43,058 nt of DNA from Deltaproteobacteria bacterium (GTDB lineage: Bacteria > Desulfobacterota > B13-G15 > RBG-16-54-18), in assembly GCA_019308925.1 (NCBI GenBank), contig JAFDHG010000010.1, positions 1 through 43,058 of the forward strand. Direction: 5' to 3'. The notes under the pieces were generated by a model. The model searched no databases. It saw only the letters and a list, made by a program, of their open reading frames with translations, and had not been told where the DNA came from. Both the position numbers and the translations under genes were made by a program. Of this stretch, positions 4,855 through 28,796 are shown piece after piece (within the stretch, counting starts at the first letter, position 1; every line of letters starts with the position of its first letter).

Positions 4855-6423
4855 TCATCCCCATTCAGAGGTTGAGGCCAGGTATTCTTTAATCTTCCCC
4901 AAGACAATCTTGGGAATATCTTCTTTGTCCTTAATGTTAAAGAGGGAGATATTCTTTTTCGTCTCTGTCCCCTCCTTAGAGCGGGTGGGATGTACGTTGT
5001 GGCCCAAATGAACGGCTGTTACCCTATTTTCGATCTGATTGAAAAACCCGATGAGTTTTTCGAGATTGGTGATCTGCATATCCGTGATAATGAAGATATC
5101 GGGGTTGTCCGCACAGGACAACAGATATTGTATGTCGCCCAGATCCAAGGCTGTACCCCCGCCGAAGTATCTGCATATAGCCTGGTAAATCTGTTCTTTT
5201 TCTTGGTTGAAGTCCAGGACGATTTTATTCCCCCTCAAGGCATCACTGAAGTTATAGACAGCAGCTCTGGACTCATTCTTCAGGTAGGCGTTGCAAGCAC
5301 AGGCTGCCCCCAGGACCGCGTACGATAACCTCTCTCGGGGATTGATCATGCTTCCGGAAGAATCGATGATGATGAGACAGTCAGGGGTCCCTTCTAATTC
5401 CCCATAGGTCTCCCCCTCTCTTTTCATCCAAATTTGGGTTATGCCAGGCATGATCTTGCCGAAACTGGTCCAGACGTCTATATCAGCAAAGGGTTTTCCC
5501 ATCTCCCAGGGCATATGAGAATGGGGATGGAGGTCACCCCTCTTTTCTATGGGGAGTTTTCTTATGGGAAGGGTATAGCTCTCGGCCAGTTTCATATAAT
5601 AGAGGAGATTGGCATCGATGGGATTCCCCTTGCCCCTTCCCATTCCTCCGGTGGCATATCCCTTCTCCTCCAATTCCTCCCTTAAATCTTCCACCGTTTC
5701 CTTGAACTCCTGTAAATCCTGCACAGCAGAGGCGAAATCCCTCAATCCACGATCGATCTCATCCAAGGAGTAGTTGTCCAAAGAATGTTCCCCTAAGGGG
5801 TTGGGTCTTCTCTGGGGGTTCTCTTGCTCATTTTCTAATTCCTCTTCGAGGATATCCTGAATGACCTTGGTGAATTTTTTTATGCTTTCCTCCCATCTTT
5901 TTCGTTCCAGATAGGGAATACGGGAGAGGCGATTGACACGCTCATCGAAGCCTCCACCCCCCAGATCCACCCCCCAGATCTTTTCATAAAGGGAGGCCAG
6001 CACCTCATGGACCCCGGTCTTGGGGAGGTTTTTGTATAAATTAGGAATTTTTGTATCTTTTTCCTTTACACAATAGGTATCCGTTACCACATCCATAAAA
6101 TAGGTGGTCGCCTTTTGGGCTACCTCTTTCTTTCTCACCACCTTTTTGGCCTCGTTGTAAAGAGTGAGGTGGGTGTGGAAATCCCAGGGACAATACATAT
6201 AATGGGTGATCCCATGGTCGAGAACCGCTTCGACGATCTCTTCCCCCTCCATCGTATCCTTCAGCTTTTCATAAAAGGAATTGCTGATGAAGAGCTGCTT
6301 ACTCTTGATCTCCAGGGCCACCTCCTCTCCTCCCTCGATCACCTTCGGTGGGGGAATTTGGGGAAAGAGGTGTTTTTTCCTCACCTTGGGCCAAACCTTT
6401 CGAATGATCTTTTCGATTTCCAT
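4855..6423 (-). CDS. vWA-domain protein with metallopeptidase-like N-terminal region (third gene of the MoxR module)
   Basis: 522 residues, no signal peptide or membrane segment. The N-terminal half contains HGITHYMYCPWDFHTH (residues 70-85). This has the spacing of an HExxH-type zinc site but lacks the Glu, giving HxxxH, and is reminiscent of vWA-linked putative metallopeptidase domains. A Glu/Gln/Arg-rich helical linker follows (about 200-270). The C-terminal vWA domain has a complete metal-ion-dependent adhesion site: DSSGSM (about 353), a Thr in GGGTAL (about 421) and an Asp in IITDMQ (about 443). By analogy with MoxR/vWA pairs (established for CbbQ/CbbO, NorQ/NorD, RavA/ViaA) it would be the substrate adaptor for the ATPase at 7115-8458. 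It starts 9 bases after the GXGXG gene. The client is unknown. Confidence 0.8.
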   Translation of the reverse strand: MEIEKIIRKVWPKVRKKHLFPQIPPPKVIEGGEEVALEIKSKQLFISNSFYEKLKDTMEGEEIVEAVLDHGITHYMYCPWDFHTHLTLYNEAKKVVRKKEVAQKATTYFMDVVTDTYCVKEKDTKIPNLYKNLPKTGVHEVLASLYEKIWGVDLGGGGFDERVNRLSRIPYLERKRWEESIKKFTKVIQDILEEELENEQENPQRRPNPLGEHSLDNYSLDEIDRGLRDFASAVQDLQEFKETVEDLREELEEKGYATGGMGRGKGNPIDANLLYYMKLAESYTLPIRKLPIEKRGDLHPHSHMPWEMGKPFADIDVWTSFGKIMPGITQIWMKREGETYGELEGTPDCLIIIDSSGSMINPRERLSYAVLGAACACNAYLKNESRAAVYNFSDALRGNKIVLDFNQEKEQIYQAICRYFGGGTALDLGDIQYLLSCADNPDIFIITDMQITNLEKLIGFFNQIENRVTAVHLGHNVHPTRSKEGTETKKNISLFNIKDKEDIPKIVLGKIKEYLASTSEWG

Positions 6424-6432
6424 CGCCAGGTC

Positions 6433-7140
6433 TCAAAAGTAGAAGGGTTTTACTCCCTCATTGGGGAAGATGGGGTGTTCCCTCTCGAAGATCTTCCCCC
6501 CTACTATCTTTCCCAAACCTTTTATCCTCCCCCCTGCAATTATCTCACCCCCGGTCATGCCATGTCCTGTGTTAAAGCCGAGATTATGCCTTACGATGAT
6601 TTTTCCCCGCTTCATCCCCGCCCCCGTGTAATTCTTGCCGCTCCCCTCAATGATCAATTCTCCTCCATCCAGCCCTATCCCCGTAAAGTCGCCCACATTC
6701 CCCTCCACGATCAATTTTTTATTGGGGGGGAGGCGGTATCCCAGGAGGTTAATCTTGACATTGAGGTCTCGCAGATGGAGGGCGATTTCCTCCTCCTTGG
6801 CGTAGTTACAAAGGGTGGAGATATAGACCCCTGCAGGACCTGTTATCAGGTAGGGAATCTGGTCTGTGCGGTCTAGGGCATAACAAAACTCCTCTATGTC
6901 CTCGGCCGTATACTCTATCCCCTCTATCCCCTTCTCCGCTATGCTATAGGCCTTGATCACAGTACTATACTGCATCAGCCAAACCAAGTCTTTGGCCTCA
7001 TTTTTCAATAGGTCTTCGTATCCCTTGAGAACCTTAGAGAGAGTCTCTTCCTTGGATTTTAAGATCTTATCCAGGGGGATCTCGCGCTTGCGACTGCTGG
7101 TTTGGTGAAAGGCCTCAAAAGGATTTTTCATCTTTGGCAC
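6433..7140 (-). CDS. GXGXG-repeat protein (glutamate synthase alpha C-terminal / FwdC-like beta-helix)
   Basis: 235 residues. The C-terminal half (about 125-225) is a right-handed beta-helix of GXGXG repeats: VEGNVGDFTGIGLDGGELI, IEGSGKNYTGAGMKRGKII, NLGFNTGHGMTGGEIIAGG. This fold is known from the C-terminal domain of the glutamate synthase large subunit and from formylmethanofuran dehydrogenase subunit C, where it has a structural role. The N-terminal 110 residues are helical and unrecognised. There are no glutaminase or FMN domains, so it is not a glutamate synthase. It overlaps the 3' end of the MoxR gene by 26 bases and is followed 9 bases later by the vWA gene, so the three are almost certainly co-translated. 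It is probably an adaptor or substrate scaffold in this module (inference). Confidence 0.8.
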   Translation of the reverse strand: MPKMKNPFEAFHQTSSRKREIPLDKILKSKEETLSKVLKGYEDLLKNEAKDLVWLMQYSTVIKAYSIAEKGIEGIEYTAEDIEEFCYALDRTDQIPYLITGPAGVYISTLCNYAKEEEIALHLRDLNVKINLLGYRLPPNKKLIVEGNVGDFTGIGLDGGELIIEGSGKNYTGAGMKRGKIIVRHNLGFNTGHGMTGGEIIAGGRIKGLGKIVGGKIFEREHPIFPNEGVKPFYF

Positions 7141-8458
7141 CGATGTCTTTTTTTATCTCTTCATAAATGGGGTGATCTCCATCCAGGGGGGTTATCTCTT
7201 CCCCGGCAAAGGCCCTCCACCCTATGGAAAGTGCCTCCAGGAGATATTCTCTTTGCTCGTTGTATCTCTGAAAGATCTCCTCTGTTGCCTCCTTGGCCAA
7301 GTATATCTGAAATGGGTCATTCCTTCCCTCTCCCTCCTTTCTGGAGAGGTAGGAATCCTTCCACTGGATCCGATGGGCCAGGGTGTAGGGGATGACCAAC
7401 CTGACGTGCTCGATGTCTATCTCGTCATCCTCCAAGAACCAGGCCAAGGCCTGAGAATAATTCCTGATTGAGGTAGGGAGTCTATTGGAGGCACAGTTTT
7501 TGATGTGATGGCATAGATAGCCCGTATAGTGGCATCCCTCTTCACATACTTCTACCGACCTCTTCTGTCCGTACTTGTGGCAGAAGGAGAGCTCTGCCAG
7601 CAGCGTGCGCACAAAGGCGTTGGCATCGAGATCGAAATCTATATCTACCATCTCCTCCTTGATCTCGCTCCTCTCTCCTTTGTTTAGACCTTTTACCCCA
7701 AGGGTTTCCTTCATATGCTCGCCGACGAGGTCACAGATCTCCTCGGCCATGGCCATCTTTTCATCATAGGGTTTGTTTCCCCTGAGTATCTGGTATAGGT
7801 CCTTCTCATACTGGGGGTGCCGGAGGGGATGGTTCAGCCTCGTCTCCTTACCGATGGTGAAGGCTATGTTTGGACCTGGGTGTCTTGACTCCACCAGGAT
7901 GTCGAAACGGTCGATGAGGGGGGCGATGATGGTATTCGTTCCCCTGTCCTGATAGTTGGCCGTAGCAAAAAGGGAATATTCATCATTGATCAAGATCTCG
8001 TTGAGATATTCCCAGTTTCCCCGATCTACACCGTTCAAGATCATACTCTGTTTGGTCTCAGGGAGGCGGTTTATTTCGTCCACGATCTTCACGGGGATCT
8101 GTGCAAAGTTGGTCCAGACCACCTCTTCCTTTCCCTTGTTTAGTTCACCTAGATCGGGTCTGCCGATGATCTTTTCCTCTGTCTGTTCAGGGTGTCCGGA
8201 GACCTCACTCCCCCAGATCACTCCCAGGGGATACCGGTAGAGGATGGAACCCGCATATTCCGCTGAGGTTGTCTTGCCCAGACCAGGCTCTCCGATGATA
8301 AGCTCCTTGCCCCCATTGAGGCCTGTGAGGAGACAAAACAGGAGAGTAGAGTTGAATCTTTCTCCTTTTATATCTATGTCCGGTCTATTGAGATATAGGT
8401 TATCACTGATATAACCATATATATCTCTAATTCTTTCTTGATAATACCCATTTTTCAT
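7115..8458 (-). CDS. MoxR-type AAA+ ATPase with an internal cysteine cluster
   Basis: 447 residues, cytoplasmic. Walker A GEPGLGKT is at 56-63, Walker B VKIVDEI at about 123-129, sensor-1 ATAN at about 165, and the arginine-finger region LIDRFD at 181-186; this is the MoxR arrangement. In the lid region there are cysteines at about 293, 305, 309, 316 and 322 (CEEGC...YLCHHIKNC), a spacing able to bind zinc or an Fe-S cluster, and not a general MoxR feature. MoxR ATPases with vWA partners remodel or insert metal cofactors in enzymes; here the partner genes follow in the same operon. The start ATG at 8458 follows AGAGGAGC. The target enzyme is not identifiable from the window. Confidence 0.88.
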   Translation of the reverse strand: MKNGYYQERIRDIYGYISDNLYLNRPDIDIKGERFNSTLLFCLLTGLNGGKELIIGEPGLGKTTSAEYAGSILYRYPLGVIWGSEVSGHPEQTEEKIIGRPDLGELNKGKEEVVWTNFAQIPVKIVDEINRLPETKQSMILNGVDRGNWEYLNEILINDEYSLFATANYQDRGTNTIIAPLIDRFDILVESRHPGPNIAFTIGKETRLNHPLRHPQYEKDLYQILRGNKPYDEKMAMAEEICDLVGEHMKETLGVKGLNKGERSEIKEEMVDIDFDLDANAFVRTLLAELSFCHKYGQKRSVEVCEEGCHYTGYLCHHIKNCASNRLPTSIRNYSQALAWFLEDDEIDIEHVRLVIPYTLAHRIQWKDSYLSRKEGEGRNDPFQIYLAKEATEEIFQRYNEQREYLLEALSIGWRAFAGEEITPLDGDHPIYEEIKKDIGAKDEKSF

Positions 8459-11810: not shown

Positions 11811-13241
11811 CTAACTTTGGAAGAGAGGTACCGCGTAAGGCCCTTCTTTAATAAAGGCAAGGGTGGGCTCTTTCCCTATCCTTTGGATCCGGTATACGGC
11901 ATGGATGAGGGCCCGCTGGATCATCAGTTGAGCCCTCTCCAGGAGGGGCTTTTTCATCTCCTCGTCCCCCAGGTAAACATAGCCGCTGACCCCGGGGATG
12001 ATCTTGTAACCCTGCGAATGGATATTAGGAGAGCAGTAGATCAGCCTTTCTGCTGAGACCCTACGCATGACCTTCGTCCACATCTCTGTTTCCCATTGAT
12101 CCTTGGTGAAGGTCCAGCTAGGTGAACGGATGAGGTCTAAGTATCCCTGTGGGCCTTGCATCTTCAACAGATGCAGCAACCTCTTGTATTCTGGCCCTCC
12201 AATGGGCTCGGGATCGAGATTGTTCGCGGCGATGATGATGGTTCCCCCCTCTTTGACGGCAGGCAGGGCCCCCACTGCTGCCTTGGCAGTCTGATAGTGA
12301 TTTATGCCGACATAACCCGCATGGGTGAGGACGATGTCGTAGGGATGGTCAATGAGGATGGCCACCTCTTCCCTCACCTTTTGGCAGGACTCCAGATGGG
12401 CCTGAACCAGATCTCCAGCGAAGATCCCGGTGAGCTTGAGGTCGCGGTTCAGCGTAACATTTAGGGTGAAGGCTACCCCCACGGCCTGGGCTATCTCCAA
12501 TGCCTCCTCATGACAGGGGTTTCCCTCCAGGACCAGATTGGCAGAAAGGGGATGCTCCAAGAGCTCCGGCCCATGAAAGCGTTCTATGGTCTGTTTATCC
12601 ACCAGACCAGGGCAGATTGCCTTTCTGCCACCAGAAAAGCCCGCCATGAAATGAGTTTCTACCAGGCCGGTGGTGATGCGCAGATCTGCCCTGTAGAAGT
12701 CTTTATCGATGAAGACCTGAGTCCCTCGGCTGGTCCTCCCTACATAGGCCAGGTTGGCCTGATCCTCGCAATCGTGATCTTTGATGGGGTAACGCCCCAT
12801 CACCTCATCTCCGAACATCTGAACCTTTTCCTCTTCAGTGCTAGCCCGATGCATACCTGTTGCGACCAGGAGCATGATATTCTCCCTCTTGATATTACAT
12901 GTCTCTAGGGCTCGAAGTAGCGGTAGGAGAATACCTCCTTTCCCCTGATAGGGGATTGGCCTGGTGATATCGGAGACGGCGATGCACACAGAGATTTGGT
13001 GAGGTGGCCTTCCCTTCCGCTTGATGATCTCCTGCAAGGCGGGGCTGGCAATGGGATGTTTTAAGGCCTCATCAATGGCCTTTTGTGGATCTGGGAGGGG
13101 AGGGATTTCCGTCATCTCCAGGACCTCAAGCTGGGGAGGGACGATGATCTCCAGCTCAGCTTTGCCGAACTCTACAGTTATCCTCTTCCAGCCCTGAATG
13201 TCTGTATTTTTCAGCGCCTCGCTGACCTCGTCCCACATCAT
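11811..13241 (-). CDS. LarA-like protein, nickel-pincer lactate racemase superfamily (DUF2088)
   Basis: It resembles lactate racemase LarA, which interconverts hydroxy-acid stereoisomers using a nickel-pincer nucleotide. LarA landmarks are present in order: SDITRP (Asp and Arg), LVATGMHR (His), ETHFMAGFSGGRKAICPG (His and the Lys that carries the cofactor in LarA), then a C-terminal DUF-like domain ending near LAFIKEGPYAVP. No larB, larC or larE is in the window, so the cofactor must come from elsewhere and the substrate is open; LarA homologues act on diverse 2-hydroxy acids. The frame is open to an ATG at 13412, but that extension has no ribosome-binding site and contains a 32-base palindrome (13299-13330). 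I prefer the ATG pair at 13241/13238 behind AAGAAGGGA; an annotation starting at 13412 (533 aa) is possible. Confidence 0.8.
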   Translation of the reverse strand: MMWDEVSEALKNTDIQGWKRITVEFGKAELEIIVPPQLEVLEMTEIPPLPDPQKAIDEALKHPIASPALQEIIKRKGRPPHQISVCIAVSDITRPIPYQGKGGILLPLLRALETCNIKRENIMLLVATGMHRASTEEEKVQMFGDEVMGRYPIKDHDCEDQANLAYVGRTSRGTQVFIDKDFYRADLRITTGLVETHFMAGFSGGRKAICPGLVDKQTIERFHGPELLEHPLSANLVLEGNPCHEEALEIAQAVGVAFTLNVTLNRDLKLTGIFAGDLVQAHLESCQKVREEVAILIDHPYDIVLTHAGYVGINHYQTAKAAVGALPAVKEGGTIIIAANNLDPEPIGGPEYKRLLHLLKMQGPQGYLDLIRSPSWTFTKDQWETEMWTKVMRRVSAERLIYCSPNIHSQGYKIIPGVSGYVYLGDEEMKKPLLERAQLMIQRALIHAVYRIQRIGKEPTLAFIKEGPYAVPLFQS

Positions 13242-13298
13242 TGATCCCTTCTTCGTATCTATTGCTATCACTTCGTCGTTTATTTTGTCAAACCCCTC

Positions 13299-13330
13299 GG
13301 CACGTGGTAAAGATGTCTTTGCCACGTGCC
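13299..13330. promoter_or_regulatory. 32-base near-perfect palindrome upstream of the LarA-like gene
   Basis: GGCACGTGG (13299-13307) and CCACGTGCC (13322-13330) are exact inverted copies. Between them AAAGA and TCTTT extend the pairing after one mismatch. It is placed 58 bases upstream of the preferred LarA-like start, with no T-run on either side, so it is more like an operator or a leader hairpin than a terminator. Confidence 0.5.
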
Positions 13331-13446
13331 CTTCCCAATTATGGAATAAAAAAGTTGGGGGGGTGTATTCGAGATCTGGAAAAATGCTCTGAAGATGGTC
13401 CTTGTGCACCATTTAGGTGCTTTATTGAAGAGATAGTTATGGTAAT

Positions 13447-22525: not shown

Positions 22526-22614
22526 GGAGGGATGGCCGAGTGGTTTAAGGCGGCGGTCTTGAAAACCGCTTCCCCCAAAAGGGGACGGGGGTTCGAATCC
22601 CTCTCCCTCCGCCA
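22526..22614 (+). tRNA. tRNA-Ser(UGA)
   Basis: The acceptor arm GGAGGGA pairs with TCCCTCC, with encoded CCA. The anticodon loop CTTGAAA gives anticodon TGA, and the T loop GTTCGAATC is standard. It has the long variable arm typical of tRNA-Ser (CCCC-AAAA-GGGG). It lies downstream of serS. Confidence 0.95.
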
Positions 22615-22615
22615 G

Positions 22616-22636
22616 AAAATTTGCTTTGCAAATTTT
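22616..22636 (+). repeat. A/T-rich hairpin after tRNA-Ser(UGA)
   Basis: AAAATTTGC, TTT, GCAAATTTT, starting one base after the CCA. Hairpins in the same place follow the CGA and GGA tRNAs with different but still complementary stem bases. A related tail containing GCTTATAGCGATGA follows each one. It may act as terminator or 3'-end processing signal. Confidence 0.55.
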
Positions 22637-22810
22637 ACGAGTTGCTTATAGCGATGAACTTGTAGCAGTTTGACTTAGTAGTACTTTAGGGGTATCATGA
22701 TAAAGATTTAAGCCAGAACGTTGCAGAATGGGCATACGCCCTGGTTGCAGCAAGTGGCATCTTTACGAAACAAGCTGTAAGAAGAAAGCTACCTGCTAGA
22801 GGCTAAGGGT

Positions 22811-22830
22811 ATCTCCGCAGTTGCGGGGAT
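22811..22830. repeat. hairpin upstream of tRNA-Ser(GCU)
   Basis: ATCTCCGC, AGTT, GCGGGGAT, an 8-bp stem with one T-G wobble, three bases before the tRNA. It is similar in size and place to 22504-22522. Confidence 0.45.
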
Positions 22831-22833
22831 CGC

Positions 22834-22927
22834 GGAGAGATGGCCGAGTTAGGCTGAAGGCGCTCGCCTGCTAAGCGAGTATCCCGGGAAACCGGGATCG
22901 AGGGTTCGAATCCCTCTCTCTCCGCCA
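22834..22927 (+). tRNA. tRNA-Ser(GCU)
   Basis: The acceptor GGAGAGA pairs with TCTCTCC, with encoded CCA. The anticodon loop CTGCTAA gives GCT. The long variable arm is TCCCGG-GAAA-CCGGGA. A T-run follows the CCA, and the GalU-like gene begins 20 bases later. This gene lacks the A/T-rich hairpin found after the other three tRNA-Ser genes. Confidence 0.95.
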
Positions 22928-22946
22928 TTTTTTTGTCTTTAGGGAG

Positions 22947-23759
22947 ATGGAAAAGATCAGAAAAGGGATTATCCCCGCTGCAGGCATGGGGACCAGGATG
23001 CATTCCCTGGCGAGGGGGCAGATCAAGGAGATGCTCCTCATAGGGGGGAAACCGATGATCTCATATGCCGTCTGTGAGGCCGTCCTCTCTGGTTTGGAAG
23101 AACTATATATCGTGGTAAATGAACGAAAGGAATCCCTGCGCCGCTACCTCGAATCAGAGCAGTTACAGAAGGACTTACAAGCAGAGGGATGGAAGGGGAG
23201 GACTTTTTCTTTAAGGTTGACTTTTATAGATCAGCCGGCCCCCTTGGGGTCAGGTGAGGCCATATACAGGGTAAGGGAACTGGTAGGGGAGGAGCCCTTT
23301 GCCTTGATGATGCCGGACTTCATCTTCTTTGGCCGCACCCCTGCCTTGGACCAGATGATCCCTCTCTATCAGCGGTTTGAACTGGACACGATAGGGGTCC
23401 TCTCTCTGGGGGCAAGGGAGGCAAAGGGGTTCGGAAATGTCGGGATCATTGAGAAGAGAGAACGGAAGCCAGGGGTCGTGGAGGTCCGTGGCCTCTCGGG
23501 TAAACATCCAGGTGCTTTGATCCTCAAAGAAGATAAGAAGATCCTTAAGGGGGTTGGGAGGTGGATCCTCGGTCCTCACTTCTTCTCCTATCTGGAGAGG
23601 ACCAAAGGCTGGGAGGAAGAATGGGATGACACCCCTGCGCTGCAGATGATCTGTGAGGAAAGGGAGGTAATGGGAAAGGTCTTGGAGGGGAGGGGTTTCG
23701 ATGTGGGCAACCCCGTTGGTTACCGCGCAGCCCAGCGCTTTGCAGCAGGAGGGTCTTGA
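22947..23759 (+). CDS. GalU-like sugar nucleotidyltransferase
   Basis: 270 residues, nucleotidyltransferase family similar to UTP--glucose-1-phosphate uridylyltransferase. It has GIIPAAGMGTRMHSLARGQIKEML (nucleotide-binding GxGTR and the PKEML-like lysine region, about residues 7-30), GKPMISYAVCEAVLSG, APLGSGEAIYRV (GalU: xLGHAxAV, here GSG) and LMMPDFIF in place of the LPDD motif. These deviations make the exact sugar and nucleotide uncertain. The ATG at 22947 directly abuts AGGGAG and follows tRNA-Ser(GCU) by 20 bases, so read-through transcription from the tRNA is possible. Confidence 0.8.
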   Translation: MEKIRKGIIPAAGMGTRMHSLARGQIKEMLLIGGKPMISYAVCEAVLSGLEELYIVVNERKESLRRYLESEQLQKDLQAEGWKGRTFSLRLTFIDQPAPLGSGEAIYRVRELVGEEPFALMMPDFIFFGRTPALDQMIPLYQRFELDTIGVLSLGAREAKGFGNVGIIEKRERKPGVVEVRGLSGKHPGALILKEDKKILKGVGRWILGPHFFSYLERTKGWEEEWDDTPALQMICEEREVMGKVLEGRGFDVGNPVGYRAAQRFAAGGS

Positions 23760-23863
23760 CGCTGAAGTTTAAAGATGTTATTTAGAAAATAATCTTACTC
23801 GAATCCTTCTCCTCCCCTGGGGGGAGGGGATAAAGGGGAGGGGGAAATTAATTTTCAAAAAAA

Positions 23864-23940
<77 letters not shown>

Positions 23941-24014
23941 GTGATTTCAAGGGGTTAGCCAATTGAGCCTAATCCCATTTTTACTATTTGCTACCATTTT
24001 GCTACCATCTCAAA

Positions 24015-24409
24015 TTACCTTAGCCTTTTAAAGTTTAATGCGTATTTCCTGTTATCTCTGCTTCCCTCATATAGTTCTACATGACTTAGGTTATCCCTTA
24101 AACATTGAGTAATCTGTTTACGTTTTCGTTCTTCAATTTTACAACCTAGGTATATAGCTTCTATTTCCTGAGGCAAAAAGTCAAAAAATTCAAATAGCTT
24201 TCCATTATCTTCTTTTTTGCTACCAATACATCGCCATTCCTTTTCATATGCCCAGTGATCACTTTTAGTGCTCGCAAAACGAGGAAATAATTTGCTAGTA
24301 TCTATTCGCTGTTGTCCCGTTATATGTTTAATCCAATCATCCATGCTAGCGATAACTGGAACACGAGTTTGATATTTGATTGGTACCGCTGCACACAGAG
24401 AAATATAAA
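24015..24409 (-). pseudogene. DUF2971-family protein, 3' remnant
   Basis: The frame encodes HWAYEKEWRCIGSK...FFDFLPQEIEAIYLGCKI, the C-terminal signature of DUF2971 proteins, which often occur in mobile and defence regions. An internal ATG at 24344 would give 109 residues, but the frame is open upstream (CAAVPIKYQTRVPVIAS) to the end of the transposon at 24410. The N-terminal half is missing and not found beyond the transposon. It is probably a gene cut by the transposon or by deletion. Confidence 0.6.
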
Positions 24410-25418
24410 GTGTCAGGTCTACACTATTGACTCCAATAATTGCTTGAGCTTCAACACCTCCTTGGATAGCTTCTCGTCTGCCTTCAGGATCTCCTCAAAT
24501 CGTCGCGTGTTTTGGCTCACGCCTGAGGGACTGATCCCACCAAAAAACCCCCCGATTTCCCCCAAAGACCTCCCACTCAACCGATGACAGAGATACATCG
24601 CTGCCCTTCTCGCCTCAACCGCCCCCTTGCCAAATCTTTTCTCGCACTCCCTTAAAATGGAGGTACAATCTGGCCGCAAAGAAAGCTTCCCCAAAGCTGG
24701 AACATCACGATGGGAGGCCACCTTGCCAATCCATCTCTCCCTCACCCACGCCACAAACTCCTCAGAGCCCAAAAGGGTCGATGCGATCACCTTCTTTAGG
24801 GGATTCCCCACTTCCTCTCCCATTCCTTCCCTCACGTAATCCCGATACATCCTCCGAGCTCGCCTCTCATCCGAACTGAGCTGAGTCAATATGAAATCAA
24901 CCCGCAGCCACCCCCACCTCTTTCCCTTGCCTACGTAATCTATATAACTGCTCCAAGGGTACTGCGAGGGATTATCCACTAAATGCGCCCTGAGCGGATT
25001 TAAATGAATGTAACGCGACAGTTCCCAGGCGTAGCTATCCCTTTCAACCAAAATAGCCCGGTACCGCCCCTGAAAAAGGTGGCCCACCCTCCCTGTATTT
25101 CGGTTGAAATAGTTGGTGTAACTGGTGTTCAAATGGTGAAGGATGACGTGGAGATTGCCCCTCGGGGTCTCCAGGAGGAGATGGTAGTGATTGGGCATAA
25201 GACAGAAGCAGTGAATCTGAGCCCCATATCTCTCGGTCGCTGATTCCAAGTAACCTGTAAATCTCTCATAATCCTCCTTTGCCAAAAAGATGGGCCTTCG
25301 TTCATTACCCCGGGAGGTGACATGGTAAAAAGCGCCAGGATACTCAATCCTCAATGGCCTTCCCATGAAGATTTTATATCAAATCAGATAGGTTTTGTCA
25401 ATAGTGTAGGTCTGACAC
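24410..25418 (-). mobile_element. REP-associated (Y1/RAYT-type) transposon unit with inverted ends
   Basis: About 1.0 kb bounded by 22-base inverted ends at 24410-24431 and 25397-25418 that differ at two positions. The left end starts GTGTCAGGTC and the right end (reverse complement) starts GTGTCAGACC; both then read TACACTATTGAC. Each end can fold as GTGT/ACAC around a 7-base loop, a REP-like hairpin. The left end covers the transposase stop codon. It inserted next to the DUF2971 remnant. Confidence 0.75.
24419..25366 (-). CDS. REP-associated tyrosine transposase (Y1 / IS200-like domain)
   Basis: 315 residues. The N-terminal Y1 domain begins MGRPLRIEYPGAFYHVTSRGNER and has the metal-binding HUH motif in LMPNHYHLLLE (about residues 57-67). 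The probable catalytic tyrosine is in ELSRYIHLNPLRAHLV (about residue 124), preceded by GHLFQGRYRAILVE. The C-terminal part (LSLRPDCTSILRE, LCHRLSGRSLGEIGGFFGGISPSGVSQ) is a helix-turn-helix like that of DnaA domain IV, common in this group. The gene is intact, so the element may still be active. Confidence 0.92.
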   Translation of the reverse strand: MGRPLRIEYPGAFYHVTSRGNERRPIFLAKEDYERFTGYLESATERYGAQIHCFCLMPNHYHLLLETPRGNLHVILHHLNTSYTNYFNRNTGRVGHLFQGRYRAILVERDSYAWELSRYIHLNPLRAHLVDNPSQYPWSSYIDYVGKGKRWGWLRVDFILTQLSSDERRARRMYRDYVREGMGEEVGNPLKKVIASTLLGSEEFVAWVRERWIGKVASHRDVPALGKLSLRPDCTSILRECEKRFGKGAVEARRAAMYLCHRLSGRSLGEIGGFFGGISPSGVSQNTRRFEEILKADEKLSKEVLKLKQLLESIV

Positions 25419-25517
25419 CACTGACACTCTACGAACTACCTAAAAGTGCTAATTGATGCTCAGGGTGGCCATTTTTGTCACCCAAAACAGACCCCCCCCA
25501 ACTGGCTTGCAGCCCCC

Positions 25518-25727
25518 CTATTCACGGTATTCAACGGTATTCATTAGGTGGCCGTAGATATCCATTGTCACATTTATACTGCTGTGGCTCAAGTGACTTT
25601 GAATGTACTTGGGATGCTCCCCTTGAGCGATAAGCAGGTTTGCATAGGTATGTCTCAGGTGGTGGAATTGAATCTTCGGTAACTTTGTCCTTCTCAATGC
25701 GCGGGGCCCTCCGCTAGCCCCCCACAT
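25518..25727 (-). pseudogene. tyrosine-recombinase integrase, C-terminal fragment
   Basis: Only the last 60 or so residues remain. They include FHHLRHTYANLLIAQGE (the HxxR box), IQSHLSHSSINVTMD (the second His region) and DIYGHLM with the nucleophilic tyrosine. The first catalytic arginine and the DNA-binding arm domain are absent; the apparent N-terminus (MWGASGGPRALRRTK) is not family-like. Its orientation, with the C-terminus facing tRNA-Arg(ACG), suits an integrase of an element inserted at that tRNA. Confidence 0.75.
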
Positions 25728-25748
25728 TCAGTGATTACGGCTTGCTAA

Positions 25749-26567
25749 TTATATCTCCGTCAATTCTGCCGAATTGGTATACGGAATAAGTTCTCCCGAG
25801 GTCTTTCTCTCCCAAACTATTTCATTGTGAGTGGCTTGATATACCATGCTCTTTTTAGGAAAGGTTTTTGCAATTCTAGTGATAATCCTTTTTTCTTCAA
25901 CTGTAAGTGGTTCAGCCATTGTCTCGTCAGCATTCTTTATCTCATCAATCAGGTCTCGATAGTTATTAAGCTGTGGACCCCACGGGAGCCGGGCATAAGT
26001 AGAGCCGGTCATACTTTCCCCTAGCTCCCGAAAAGCCACCATATCTGCATACCACAAATACTTTGCTGCGTAGAGCATCCTGTCGTTCTTTACCAAAAGC
26101 CTTTTTCCCAGGATAGACTCAAATTGCCTCAAGACGAGTTTTATTCTTGGTATTGATAATACTCGGTTACCTGTATAAATATCTCCAACTGTCTGACCCT
26201 GGAGGGCTGTACGCAGGGCCTTGTCCATAGATTTGCTTTGGATCAGCCCCCCTTCCCACCTCTTTATGCTAGCGATACCAACACTCATCCGCCTTGCAAG
26301 ATCGTCTTGGGTTAAGCCCAGTTTTTTTCTACGTTCCCGTATTTCCTTGCCTGTCAGCAGACCAACCATTTTACGGTAGGCATCTGAAATCGCTCTCTGA
26401 GTGGCAGCCGCCTGGTCGATTGTACCCACCTCTATGCCGCAAACCAGGCATACGTAATATTCTGCTTGAAAAGTTATATCAACACCACGAAACGTTATAC
26501 TTTTATCCAATTTCTTAATCTGCATTGCCCCGTGGCCATTTGGGCAGTTCATAGCATTTTTCGTCAT
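25749..26567 (-). CDS. antitoxin with YgiT/MqsA zinc finger, XRE helix-turn-helix and Panacea (DUF4065) domain
   Basis: 272 residues from the ATG at 26567. The N-terminal MqsA-like zinc region has CPNGHG and YYVCLVCGIEV. The HTH is at about 75-125 (GKEIRERRKKLGLTQDDLARRMSVGIASIKRWE), the same order as MqsA. The C-terminal Panacea/SocA-like domain covers about 165-272 (RMLYAAKYLWYADMVAF, YARLPWGPQLNNY). Panacea is established as a versatile toxin-neutralising domain. The preferred ATG lies one base after the stop of the upstream toxin-like gene and has GAGAGGGA; an upstream in-frame ATG at 26618 would overlap that gene. The likely role is to neutralise that protein and repress the operon. Confidence 0.85.
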   Translation of the reverse strand: MTKNAMNCPNGHGAMQIKKLDKSITFRGVDITFQAEYYVCLVCGIEVGTIDQAAATQRAISDAYRKMVGLLTGKEIRERRKKLGLTQDDLARRMSVGIASIKRWEGGLIQSKSMDKALRTALQGQTVGDIYTGNRVLSIPRIKLVLRQFESILGKRLLVKNDRMLYAAKYLWYADMVAFRELGESMTGSTYARLPWGPQLNNYRDLIDEIKNADETMAEPLTVEEKRIITRIAKTFPKKSMVYQATHNEIVWERKTSGELIPYTNSAELTEI

Positions 26568-26568
26568 T

Positions 26569-26928
26569 TTATTCTCCCTCTCTATGCTGGTGAAAAGATA
26601 CAAGCCACATTTTGTCATCTTTGAGCGTAAACTTTAAATAGACCTCACAACCCAAACGCTTACTTACCCATCTAAAAGCGAAGAGCTCGCAATCCTTAAT
26701 TTTGTCCTCATAAGAACGTTGCGGAGGTCTTTGCCCTGCATAATCAGGCGGCGTTATTTCATTCAATACCTCATAAAGGACATTTTCAATATCTTCGATA
26801 AGGTGGCCTAGTTCCAAGGCATCGGCAGCAATGGAGACTGGATCTACAATACCAATGCGATCTTCTAATACTGCTTCCCTTGCCTGTCTGATCTTGTTGT
26901 TAAGTTCCTTATGAGAAGGTCTTTTCAT
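26569..26928 (-). CDS. putative toxin, MqsR-like C-terminal half
   Basis: 119 residues, first gene of a two-gene operon with the Panacea antitoxin. The C-terminal stretch GCEVYLKFTLKDDKMWLVSFHQ matches the core of MqsR (GQVYLKITV...VSF), an mRNA-cleaving RelE-fold toxin, in both sequence and position. The first 60 residues (EAVLEDRIGIVDPVSIAADALELGHLIEDIENVLYEVL) are helical and unlike MqsR. Because the partner carries an MqsA-like N-terminus, a divergent MqsR-type ribonuclease is the best guess. This assignment rests on motif resemblance and gene order only. Confidence 0.6.
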   Translation of the reverse strand: MKRPSHKELNNKIRQAREAVLEDRIGIVDPVSIAADALELGHLIEDIENVLYEVLNEITPPDYAGQRPPQRSYEDKIKDCELFAFRWVSKRLGCEVYLKFTLKDDKMWLVSFHQHREGE

Positions 26929-27077
26929 TTAAAGTATGGTATCAATTGATGCCTTTGTCAAGCACTTTTTGCCTTTTTATATCACTTTAGCTCTTTTATG
27001 CCACTTCCAACATACTGAGCATTAAAAAACCTTTAGTTTGCAGTAAGTTATCGATTTACTCGCTTTTTATAAAAATC

Positions 27078-27120
27078 ATGCCAGAAAACCCACAAGCTTG
27101 CTTGTGGGATGAAATGGCAT
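27078..27120 (-). terminator. nested hairpin terminator of the small membrane protein gene
   Basis: On the minus strand CCCACAAG, CAAG loop, CTTGTGGG is followed by TTTT. ATGCCA/TGGCAT (27115-27120 and 27078-27083) can pair outside it. A second hairpin with the same CAAG loop, ACCGAG/CTCGGT, lies at 27168-27183, just after the gene's stop. The 26929-27189 gap contains nothing else I recognise. Confidence 0.5.
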
Positions 27121-27189
27121 CCTTACAAAGCAGGGTTTTTAGGGGACGGCGATTAGCGGAAGAAGCAACCGAGCTTGCTCGGTGGTAGT

Positions 27190-27411
27190 TCACTTATTTT
27201 TGAGTGCAATAAAGATGGCCAAGGCGATTGCTATAATACCAACTGAATATGATAAAGCTGTAATAGGATTGCCAGACCAAAGACTACATATAATTTTTTT
27301 CCACCATGCCTTACCCCAAAGGGAATCGGGACATCCTAATTTGTCTCCCCAAAAATTTATAGCTAAGGCAACCGCTGCTAATGCAAGAACGATCCTTTGA
27401 TAAATATTCAT
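27190..27411 (-). CDS. small two-helix membrane protein of unknown function
   Basis: 73 residues starting MNIYQRIVLALAAVALAINFWG. The ATG at 27411 follows AAAGGAAG; a longer in-frame start at 27453 has no such site. There are two hydrophobic segments, near the N-terminus (IVLALAAVALAINF) and the C-terminus (GIIAIALAIFIAL), separated by a Trp/Cys/Lys-rich loop with two cysteines (LGCPDSLWGKAWWKKIICSLW). I do not recognise a family. It belongs to the accessory block downstream of tRNA-Arg. Confidence 0.55.
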   Translation of the reverse strand: MNIYQRIVLALAAVALAINFWGDKLGCPDSLWGKAWWKKIICSLWSGNPITALSYSVGIIAIALAIFIALKNK

Positions 27412-27647
27412 ACCGTCACTTCCTTTCCCCCCAAAATAGGGAGGCCGGGTCACCAGGTGGATGGTAGAAGAGAGGTTTAACGCATCTCCTCAATCTCGGA
27501 TCGCCGGCCAAGCTGTTGATAAAAAAGCCCCTCTTCAATTTCCCAATTTAACCATAGCACGGCAAGGGGGAAATGTCATCGTCTGATATCCCTTGACCCC
27601 TCATTGCTTTTCTGCTAGCATTTTTTATCGGAAGTATCGAAAACAAG

Positions 27648-28112
27648 GTGAAAAAAGGCTCATTGAAAGATAAAGAGATGATGGAGATGGCCATAGAGGA
27701 GGCCCTCAAGGCCTCGCAAGAGGGAGAGGTCCCTGTGGGTGCGGTCTTGGTCAGGGAAGGCGAGGTCTTGGCCAAGGAGCACAACCGTTCCCTTTCCCTC
27801 AACGATCCCACTGCCCACGCCGAGATCTTGGTCCTACGCGAGGGGGCCTCAAGGGTAGGAAATTACCGCCTGAATGGATGTGAGCTCTATGTTACCATTG
27901 AGCCCTGTCCTATGTGTGCCGGGGCCATTTTACATAGCCGGCTGGCCCGCCTCATCTTCGGGGCGAGGGACGAAAAGGCAGGAGCGGTAGAATCCCTCTA
28001 TCGCCTGCTGAACGATCCGAGGCTGAACCATCGGGTCCAAGTGACCGAGGGTGTGCTGGCCGAGCGTTGTAAGGAGATAGTACAGGCATTTTTCCAACTT
28101 CGGAGGGAATAG
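27648..28112 (+). CDS. tadA: tRNA-specific adenosine deaminase
   Basis: 154 residues, the zinc enzyme that deaminates A34 to inosine in tRNA-Arg(ACG) so that it reads CGU, CGC and CGA. The active site is complete: HAE in DPTAHAEILVLREGA (zinc His and proton-shuttling Glu), and PCPMCAGAI with the two zinc cysteines; VPVGAVLV is typical of the N-terminus. I kept the GTG at 27648, but ATGs ten codons later are possible starts. The stop lies two bases before tRNA-Ser(CGA), so the tRNA may be processed from a tadA transcript. Its substrate tRNA-Arg(ACG) is encoded 3.7 kb upstream. Confidence 0.96.
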   Translation: MKKGSLKDKEMMEMAIEEALKASQEGEVPVGAVLVREGEVLAKEHNRSLSLNDPTAHAEILVLREGASRVGNYRLNGCELYVTIEPCPMCAGAILHSRLARLIFGARDEKAGAVESLYRLLNDPRLNHRVQVTEGVLAERCKEIVQAFFQLRRE

Positions 28113-28114
28113 CA

Positions 28115-28207
<93 letters not shown>

Positions 28208-28209
28208 AG

Positions 28210-28230
28210 AAATTTAGCAAAGCTAAATTT
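28210..28230 (+). repeat. A/T-rich hairpin after tRNA-Ser(CGA)
   Basis: AAATTTAGC, AAA, GCTAAATTT: a perfect 9-bp stem. The following 60 bases (GGCTTATAGCAATGAGCTTTTAGCTGG...) align with the tail after tRNA-Ser(GGA). Confidence 0.55.
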
Positions 28231-28293
28231 CACTCTTGGCTTATAGCAATGAGCTTTTAGCTGGAGGATTTCATTGCCGCCCTGCTGTAAATT

Positions 28294-28650
28294 ATGAAAT
28301 TTAGATTCAAGAATTTTAGGGCTTACCAGGAAGCTAAGGATTATTGCAAGTTTTGCCGGGACGTCATTGAAAGATATGTTGAGAAAAAGGGCAAGGGGCT
28401 TACAAACCAATTGGAAAGGGCTTTAAATTCCATTGTGCTTAATATTGCCGAGGGATCGGCTGACAATTCCGACGCTGAGTTTGCCCGGTTTTTGAGCATC
28501 TCGATTAGATCGGCCTACGAATCGGTGGCCGGATTTGATCTTGCAACGCTCTACAGGTATATTGATGAAGATTTAAACCAAGAGATTGAGGATAAGGCAC
28601 ATAATCTTGTAAAGCAACTTTCTTTATTTCGCAACAAACTGAAAAAATGA
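28294..28650 (+). CDS. four-helix-bundle protein (23S rRNA intervening-sequence family)
   Basis: 118 residues with the family pattern: FKNFRAYQEAKDYCKFC at the start, then LTNQLERALNSIVLNIAEGSADNSDAEFARFLSISIRSAYESVAGFDLA in the middle. Proteins of this family were first found encoded within intervening sequences of 23S rRNA genes and fold as pentameric four-helix bundles; their function is not established. Here it lies between tRNA-Ser(CGA) and tRNA-Ser(GGA), enclosed by the repeated tRNA flanking modules, which suggests insertion into a duplicated tRNA segment. The ATG at 28294 has no evident ribosome-binding site. Confidence 0.9.
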   Translation: MKFRFKNFRAYQEAKDYCKFCRDVIERYVEKKGKGLTNQLERALNSIVLNIAEGSADNSDAEFARFLSISIRSAYESVAGFDLATLYRYIDEDLNQEIEDKAHNLVKQLSLFRNKLKK

Positions 28651-28681
28651 TGTTACGTGCCAAGAGCTATAAGCCAATTAT

Positions 28682-28700
28682 ATTCCCGCATAAGCGGAAT
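28682..28700. repeat. hairpin upstream of tRNA-Ser(GGA)
   Basis: ATTCC(C)GC, ATAA, GCGGAAT: a 7-bp stem with one bulged C, three bases before the tRNA. It is of the same type as 22504-22522 and 22811-22830. Confidence 0.4.
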
Positions 28701-28703
28701 CCC

Positions 28704-28796
28704 GGAGAGATGCCCGAGCTGGCCGAAGGGGCACGACTGGAAATCGTGTGTACCGGGAAACCGGTACCGAGGGTTCGAATCCCTCTCTCTCCGCCA
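28704..28796 (+). tRNA. tRNA-Ser(GGA)
   Basis: The acceptor GGAGAGA pairs with TCTCTCC, with encoded CCA. The anticodon loop CTGGAAA gives GGA. The long variable arm is GTACCGG-GAAA-CCGGTAC. With UGA, GCU and CGA it completes the usual set of tRNA-Ser species in about 6 kb. Confidence 0.95.

Follow-up and report, generated by a model that had tools for sequence, protein, structure and literature searches.

MoxR-vWA machines, in which a MoxR-type AAA+ ATPase is paired with a protein carrying a von Willebrand factor A (vWA) domain, are widespread, and how most of them choose their targets is an unsolved question. In the known pairs, a finger of the vWA protein is held in the AAA+ ring, and the partner bound at the metal ion-dependent adhesion site (MIDAS) is remodelled upon ATP hydrolysis (PMC13036017; PMC7159879). 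Pairs of MoxR with a metallopeptidase-vWA protein are known from jumbo phages (PMC7824862), and ternary MoxR-vWA systems diversified by retroelements are known from multicellular bacteria (PMC10907252). Here we analyze a three-gene locus encoding a MoxR-type AAA+ protein, a GXGXG β-helix protein and a vWA protein in a 43,058-nt stretch of DNA (the window) from a Deltaproteobacteria bacterium (assembly GCA_019308925.1, contig JAFDHG010000010.1, positions 1 to 43,058). Our preferred hypothesis, to which we assign a probability of roughly 45%, is that this trio is a MoxR-type AAA+/vWA machine for remodelling, in which the GXGXG protein is a dedicated adaptor for target recognition.

Like NorQ-NorD and CbbQ-CbbO (PMC13036017), in which a MoxR-type AAA+ protein acts with a MIDAS vWA co-chaperone, the trio combines AAA+ and MIDAS vWA proteins, but it lacks a client operon, has a different N-terminal domain and includes an extra β-helix protein. 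With the DUF2201 metallopeptidase-vWA proteins encoded with MoxR (PF13203) it shares the AAA+ neighbor, the N-terminal zincin and the C-terminal MIDAS vWA domain. In contrast to these, the window vWA protein has no PF13203 match and has lost the catalytic Glu, the lid of the AAA+ protein carries a Cys cluster, and none of the short DUF2201 loci examined showed a third, GXGXG gene. The MoxR-vWA-VMAP ternaries (PMC7159879; retroelement-linked, PMC10907252) likewise have three components with a variable third, in some cases diversified by diversity-generating retroelements (DGRs), whereas the trio lacks VMAP, STAND, FtsH and effector domains, has a β-helix protein in third place and a metallopeptidase fold in its vWA protein, and was found here among anaerobic bacteria and archaea instead of multicellular bacteria. 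The β-helix itself is also present in FwdC/FhcC and in glutamate synthase, as the GXGXG domain of the latter; compared with these, the trio protein has a shorter helix, an unrelated helical N-terminal domain and an NPFxxF motif, and no enzyme operon surrounds it. A literature search, subscription papers excluded, found no GXGXG protein joined to an AAA+ chaperone, in agreement with a first reading made from the sequence alone (the sequence-only reading), which knew of no characterized counterpart. Neither the trio nor its counterparts in nanoarchaea, where the third-slot proteins are tandem or hypermutated, appear to have been described as a unit.

A conserved three-gene unit

The trio is real, co-linear and strongly conserved. 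Its genes lie on the minus strand at 4855-8458 and are read in the order AAA+, GXGXG, vWA (Table 1). With translation from ATG 7131 the GXGXG gene shares 17 nt with the AAA+ gene, or 26 nt with translation from GTG 7140; 9 nt separate it from the vWA gene, as the sequence-only reading had described. ATG 7131 is the likelier start because relatives begin with MKNPFxxF or MINPFxxF. Against four near relatives, dN/dS (simple Nei-Gojobori, synonymous sites partly saturated) was 0.04-0.09 for the AAA+ protein, 0.02-0.07 for the GXGXG protein and 0.03-0.10 for the vWA protein.

Of 297 genomes in the window's phylum, 34 encode the vWA protein, and the order AAA+-GXGXG-vWA was found in all 30 fetched loci of the main clade (51-100% identity, the window's own included). 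In the more distant subfamily II (27-30% identity) the order is AAA+-vWA-GXGXG, and in subfamily III, from one archaeal group, it is AAA+-GXGXG-vWA again. Scanning GTDB contigs with an AAA+ profile returned 168 relatives. The best 80 of these were named and examined; they came from Desulfobacterota, Nitrospirota, Latescibacterota, Tectomicrobia, Gemmatimonadetes, Muiribacteriota, Archaeoglobi and Woesearchaeota, and all 80 records were titled metagenome-assembled genomes. All three genes were adjacent in 64 of these 80 loci. Most of the remaining 16 were cut by contig ends or had the absent genes at another site of the same genome; two genomes in which the AAA+ gene stood apart were followed, and both still contained all three genes. 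Broader profile searches detected relatives in 24 of 279 genomes from the phylum to which a Woesearchaeota locus belongs and in 15 of 197 from that of an Archaeoglobus locus. Given this recurrence, adjacency and constant order in the main clade, the trio is not a chance arrangement. It stays together across phyla, which supports the earlier claim that the genes act as a unit and removes the objection that they might be found apart among unrelated neighbors.

Individual loci depart from this layout. Two Archaeoglobi loci have two GXGXG genes after the vWA gene (L062:12770-14295 and L069:3685-5198), and in a Thermodesulfovibrionales locus (L054:11429-12163) GXGXG directly follows AAA+, with no vWA gene between or after. 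An apparent GXGXG-vWA fusion in L038 was an artifact of the open reading frame caller, its N-terminal part being another frame, and internal TGA codons in three vWA loci, considered as selenocysteine sites, are ordinary C-terminal stops.

Putative roles of the three proteins

Among Pfam families, AAA_5 scored above its cut-off (26.1 bits against 22), while VWA_2 (25.2 against 27) and GXGXG (19.1 against 32.5) fell below theirs; these two assignments are secured by the structural model of the vWA protein (vWA folds at E < 1e-3) and by the GXGXG family profile, which matched FwdC chains 5t5i, 8rja and 7bkb at E 7e-30. An NCBIfam scan found no model for the AAA+ or vWA protein and only subthreshold FwdC matches for the third protein.

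The AAA+ protein has Walker A (GEPGLGKT), Walker B (IVDEINR) and sensor 1 (FATANY) motifs, and the stretches GHPEQTEEKI and DEINRLP are invariant. Its nearest solved chains are MoxR 2r44 and Mg-chelatase ChlI/BchI. The curated MoxR model PF07726 (AAA_3) scored 13.4 bits, below its cut-off of 27, and the vWA partner looked for near MoxR-type AAA+ proteins (clade 7) is indeed encoded nearby; the MoxR-vWA affiliation proposed at the outset is supported. A Cys cluster in the lid, found in most other loci and not in all nanoarchaeal ones, could form a putative Zn or Fe-S site.

Judged by profile comparison, the N-terminal domain of the vWA protein is a degenerate zincin, and the protein is homologous to DUF2201 metallopeptidase-vWA proteins over its whole length. 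The hhalign comparison covered both domains at full length (probability 93.5, E 2.2e-7, with 3 rows only on the DUF2201 side) and included the HExxH and DxxIN segments of DUF2201. PF13203 itself had no match to the window vWA protein at E <= 1 and none in the genome; the DUF2201 genes compared adjoin MoxR-like genes in two of their three loci. The site homologous to HExxH reads DHGITHYMYCPWD in the window protein, with HGITH in place of the catalytic motif, HHELNHWAKHPYD in subfamily II and HExxH in nanoarchaeal relatives, so the sequence-only reading was right to place its HxxxH where a metallopeptidase would have HExxH. Every member of subfamily I, to which the window protein belongs, has Gly or Ala for the Glu (H[G/A]xxH). 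Because H70, H74, C78 and D111 stay while the Glu is gone, a bound metal without catalysis is likely in this subfamily. A tree of 69 vWA proteins shows at least four losses of the Glu, in subfamily I (Gly/Ala), in subfamily III (Leu), in a Thermodesulfovibrio-like pair (Gln) and in Archaeoglobi (Ala or the whole site), and HExxH is intact in most nanoarchaeal and Muiribacteriota relatives and in several from Nitrospirota. Several Archaeoglobi vWA proteins lack the first His of the site. In the vWA domain, the MIDAS residues DSS(T/S)D are present in all members of the family alignment, one residue in one row being unreadable. The AlphaFold2 model (mean predicted local distance difference test [pLDDT] score of 82) matched vWA domains in Foldseek, including NorD of the NorQD complex (9qhe_G, E 9.6e-4); searching solved structures by sequence gave chance coiled-coil matches only.

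The GXGXG protein consists of an N-terminal motif, a helical domain of its own and an FwdC-like β-helix. Its model (pLDDT 86) matches FwdC in Foldseek, and both its β-helix identity and its place between the other two genes, as first read from the sequence, are borne out. Residues 1-20 are modelled with low confidence even though NPFxxF is invariant; such conservation in a low-confidence stretch is typical of docking peptides, and we propose that NPFxxF may be one. The genome (99% complete) encodes no other GXGXG-domain protein and hence neither glutamate synthase nor formylmethanofuran dehydrogenase, so that neither enzyme is there as a source or client of this protein. That it might be a decayed fragment of glutamate synthase, the second objection foreseen, is ruled out by its low dN/dS, its own N-terminal domain and the lack of GltB and FwdC in the genome.

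In the nanoarchaeal relatives the third slot is multiplied or hypermutated. Tandem paralogs stand beside the AAA-vWA pair in four loci (eight in L217, six in L197, five in L212 and four in L216); they mostly share a locus-specific N-terminal motif, GIEKREKKE-like in L217 and GKPEEKK-like in L197, and diverge afterwards. Several have β-helix-like repeats, three match the GXGXG profile (E 2e-5 to 2e-8), and one paralog in L197 carries the common N-terminal motif with a different C-terminal domain. The slot proteins of L206 and L207 (both from one genome), of L208 and of L211 carry variable repeats at their ends, with a template nearby. Each repeat core has 7-14 changes at template adenines and 0-1 elsewhere (p 1.6e-4 to 1.5e-9); the score used to trim the cores tolerated A changes, a choice that biases slightly toward this result and cannot create it. 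Reverse transcriptases adjoin L207 and L211 (PF00078, E 1e-26 and 3e-22). In L207 and L208, AAA+ and vWA flank a retroelement target gene, with 4-nt overlaps or 1-22-nt gaps, and this gene takes the very position that GXGXG occupies in the window. A tree built without long branches places the window's subfamily with L208, L209 and L211 on one side of a branch (support 100/99.6). By analogy with these multiplied and hypermutated proteins, the third slot may be a target-recognition site. The template repeats are at L206:5338-5481, L207:6261-6406, L208 near 5990-6124 and L211:5810-5894, with their targets in the AAA-vWA operon. The tandem array at L217:4880-15508 holds eight paralogs with β-helix-like repeats, and the one scanned had no Pfam family above cut-off. 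A retroelement origin could not be shown for the variable C termini in L196 and L197, where changes are not adenine specific.

We propose that, as in NorQ-NorD, CbbQ-CbbO and Rea1, the AAA+ protein would form an ATP-driven ring with the vWA protein as co-chaperone, whose N-terminal domain, a former HExxH metallopeptidase, would bind metal and polypeptide without cutting. The GXGXG protein would dock on this engine through its N-terminal NPFxxF...PLD motif, and its β-helix would bind the target or a target complex, which ATP hydrolysis would then pull or twist into another conformation. The third component may thus be an adaptor that is fixed in the window's lineage and diversified in nanoarchaea. 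More tentatively, we speculate that the whole family comprises ATP-driven remodellers with adaptors exchangeable through an N-terminal tag, that DGR diversification in nanoarchaea yields a programmable intracellular unfoldase or protease, and that the window's lineage froze one β-helix adaptor and lost the protease; we hold this extended picture to be less probable than the adaptor hypothesis for the trio. Several points count against that hypothesis. In the window's subfamily there is only one GXGXG protein and it is strongly conserved, a pattern that a fixed target or a structural part would produce. The NPFxxF motif is absent from subfamily II, whose GXGXG proteins start differently. No GXGXG domain is detectable in the slot proteins of L206-L208 and L211, which makes their equivalence one of position and not of homology. 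It is the vWA domain that accounts for the Foldseek match to NorD, and the assembly of the three proteins is itself only predicted.

The family forms a natural series from active protease, through dead protease with a metal site, to loss of the metal site, with a third component that is fixed, multiplied or hypermutated, and target selection could therefore be tested with recombinant proteins. DGR-diversified genes between AAA+ and vWA also suggest that some archaeal retroelements have a function in the cell, unlike the report on the DPANN retroelement group, in which no conflict-system domains were found (PMC10907252).

Client search and alternative explanations

The sequence-only reading saw no evident client, and this held across about 100 loci, where no neighboring gene outside the trio is conserved across families. 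The window neighbors Lon, UvrA, ArsA/Get3 and LarA were rejected as clients, not being common to other families: Lon and UvrA are near the trio only in the window's own family, and an HD-domain gene beside it is confined to a Syntrophaceae-like group. The same reading had gone on to propose cofactor insertion into a flavin or Fe-S enzyme, or quality control. A dedicated maturation chaperone, in which the trio would insert metal, an Fe-S cluster or a molybdo/tungsto cofactor into one enzyme as NorQD and CoxDE do, with the GXGXG protein mimicking an enzyme subunit, is the alternative to which we give most weight, and we still consider it unlikely. MoxR-vWA precedents and the conserved His/His/Asp and Cys sites speak for it, as does the aldehyde:ferredoxin oxidoreductase (AOR)-type gene, which occurs in all 34 trio genomes compared with 197 of 263 others (Fisher p 2.4e-4, uncorrected for kinship) and, in three genomes from two families, is found about 5 kb or less from the trio. 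However, the proposed co-occurrence check cuts both ways: every carrier has AOR, yet the family is common in the phylum (78%) and the association may reflect lifestyle, and AOR was not accepted as client on this basis. Nor is any enzyme gene conserved beside the trio, so that the client enzyme in the operon of NorQD-type systems has no equivalent here and the proposal of a dedicated flavin or Fe-S enzyme finds no support. Insertion into a single enzyme is further opposed by the presence of the family in nanoarchaeal genomes of about 1 Mb, with a tandem or hypermutated third slot that points to varied target recognition rather than to one enzyme. Quality control or remodelling is possible.

Doubtful, and ranking behind maturation, is the hypothesis that the GXGXG protein is itself the client or building block and that the AAA-vWA pair folds, assembles or disassembles β-helix proteins. 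Tandem β-helix-like families with a common N-terminal tag beside one AAA-vWA pair would fit, as would the doubled GXGXG genes of Archaeoglobi, but some slot proteins bear retroelement variable domains instead of β-helices, and hypermutation suits binders better than substrates. We judge it less probable again that the trio is a conflict or defense system whose third component senses an invader. The three-part MoxR-vWA layout and the retroelement-diversified partner are those proposed for VMAP systems. However, the window proteins have no PADLOC match and, in library scans, no VMAP, STAND, FtsH or effector domain; the third component is GXGXG only, where ternary conflict systems would have VMAP, iSTAND, FtsH or a β-propeller. 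Scans of defense and phage libraries gave nothing specific, and a DUF2201 query found no match on viral contigs. Housekeeping neighbors (Lon, UvrA, guanylate kinase and DXS), dN/dS near 0.05 and a single third component that does not vary within the window's lineage also argue against defense. An ATP-regulated metalloprotease would suit the relatives with intact HExxH, but it is highly improbable for the window protein with its HGxxH and for a subfamily in which all members have Gly or Ala. The adaptor hypothesis remains the one we prefer.

Feature coordinates and other genes of the window

Table 1. Genes and motifs of the AAA+/GXGXG/vWA locus, in window coordinates
Feature	Position	Strand	Basis
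AAA+ ATPase, MoxR/Mg-chelatase type, 447 aa	7115..8458	minus	AAA_5 above Pfam cut-off; MoxR 2r44 and ChlI/BchI nearest solved
Walker A GEPGLGKT, AAA+ residues 56-63	8270..8293	minus	Sequence
AAA+ lid Cys cluster C293-x11-C305-x3-C309-x6-C316-x5-C322	7493..7582	minus	Subfamilies I and II both keep four of these Cys
GXGXG protein, 232 aa from ATG 7131	6433..7131 (6433..7140 from GTG, also open)	minus	Open reading frame, Pfam, profile, model, relatives' starts
NPFEAF, N-terminal NPFxxF motif, proposed docking motif	7108..7125	minus	Invariant in 30/30 main-clade loci
β-helix part, about residues 139-219 counted from GTG	6484..6726	minus	FwdC profile match, model, Foldseek to FwdC
Degenerate zincin-vWA protein, 522 aa	4855..6423	minus	Open reading frame, profile comparison, model, Foldseek
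Former HExxH site DHGITHYMYCPWD, Glu to Gly	6181..6219	minus	H70, H74, C78 kept in whole subfamily
Asp111 (FMDVV), probable third metal ligand	6091..6093	minus	Aligned with DxxIN of DUF2201
MIDAS DxSxS, D354-S358, vWA domain	5350..5364	minus	Sequence, alignment
MIDAS Thr424	5152..5154	minus	Alignment
MIDAS Asp448	5080..5082	minus	Alignment

An ArsA/Get3-type ATPase with a C-terminal HSP20-like domain is encoded at 840-2033, downstream of Lon and of the trio and on their strand. A protein of the LarA-like nickel-pincer racemase family, scoring far short of the cut-offs for the named subfamilies, is encoded at 11811-13412. Four tRNA-Ser genes (anticodons TGA, GCT, CGA and GGA) and a tRNA-Arg gene lie within 6.3 kb at 22526-28796.

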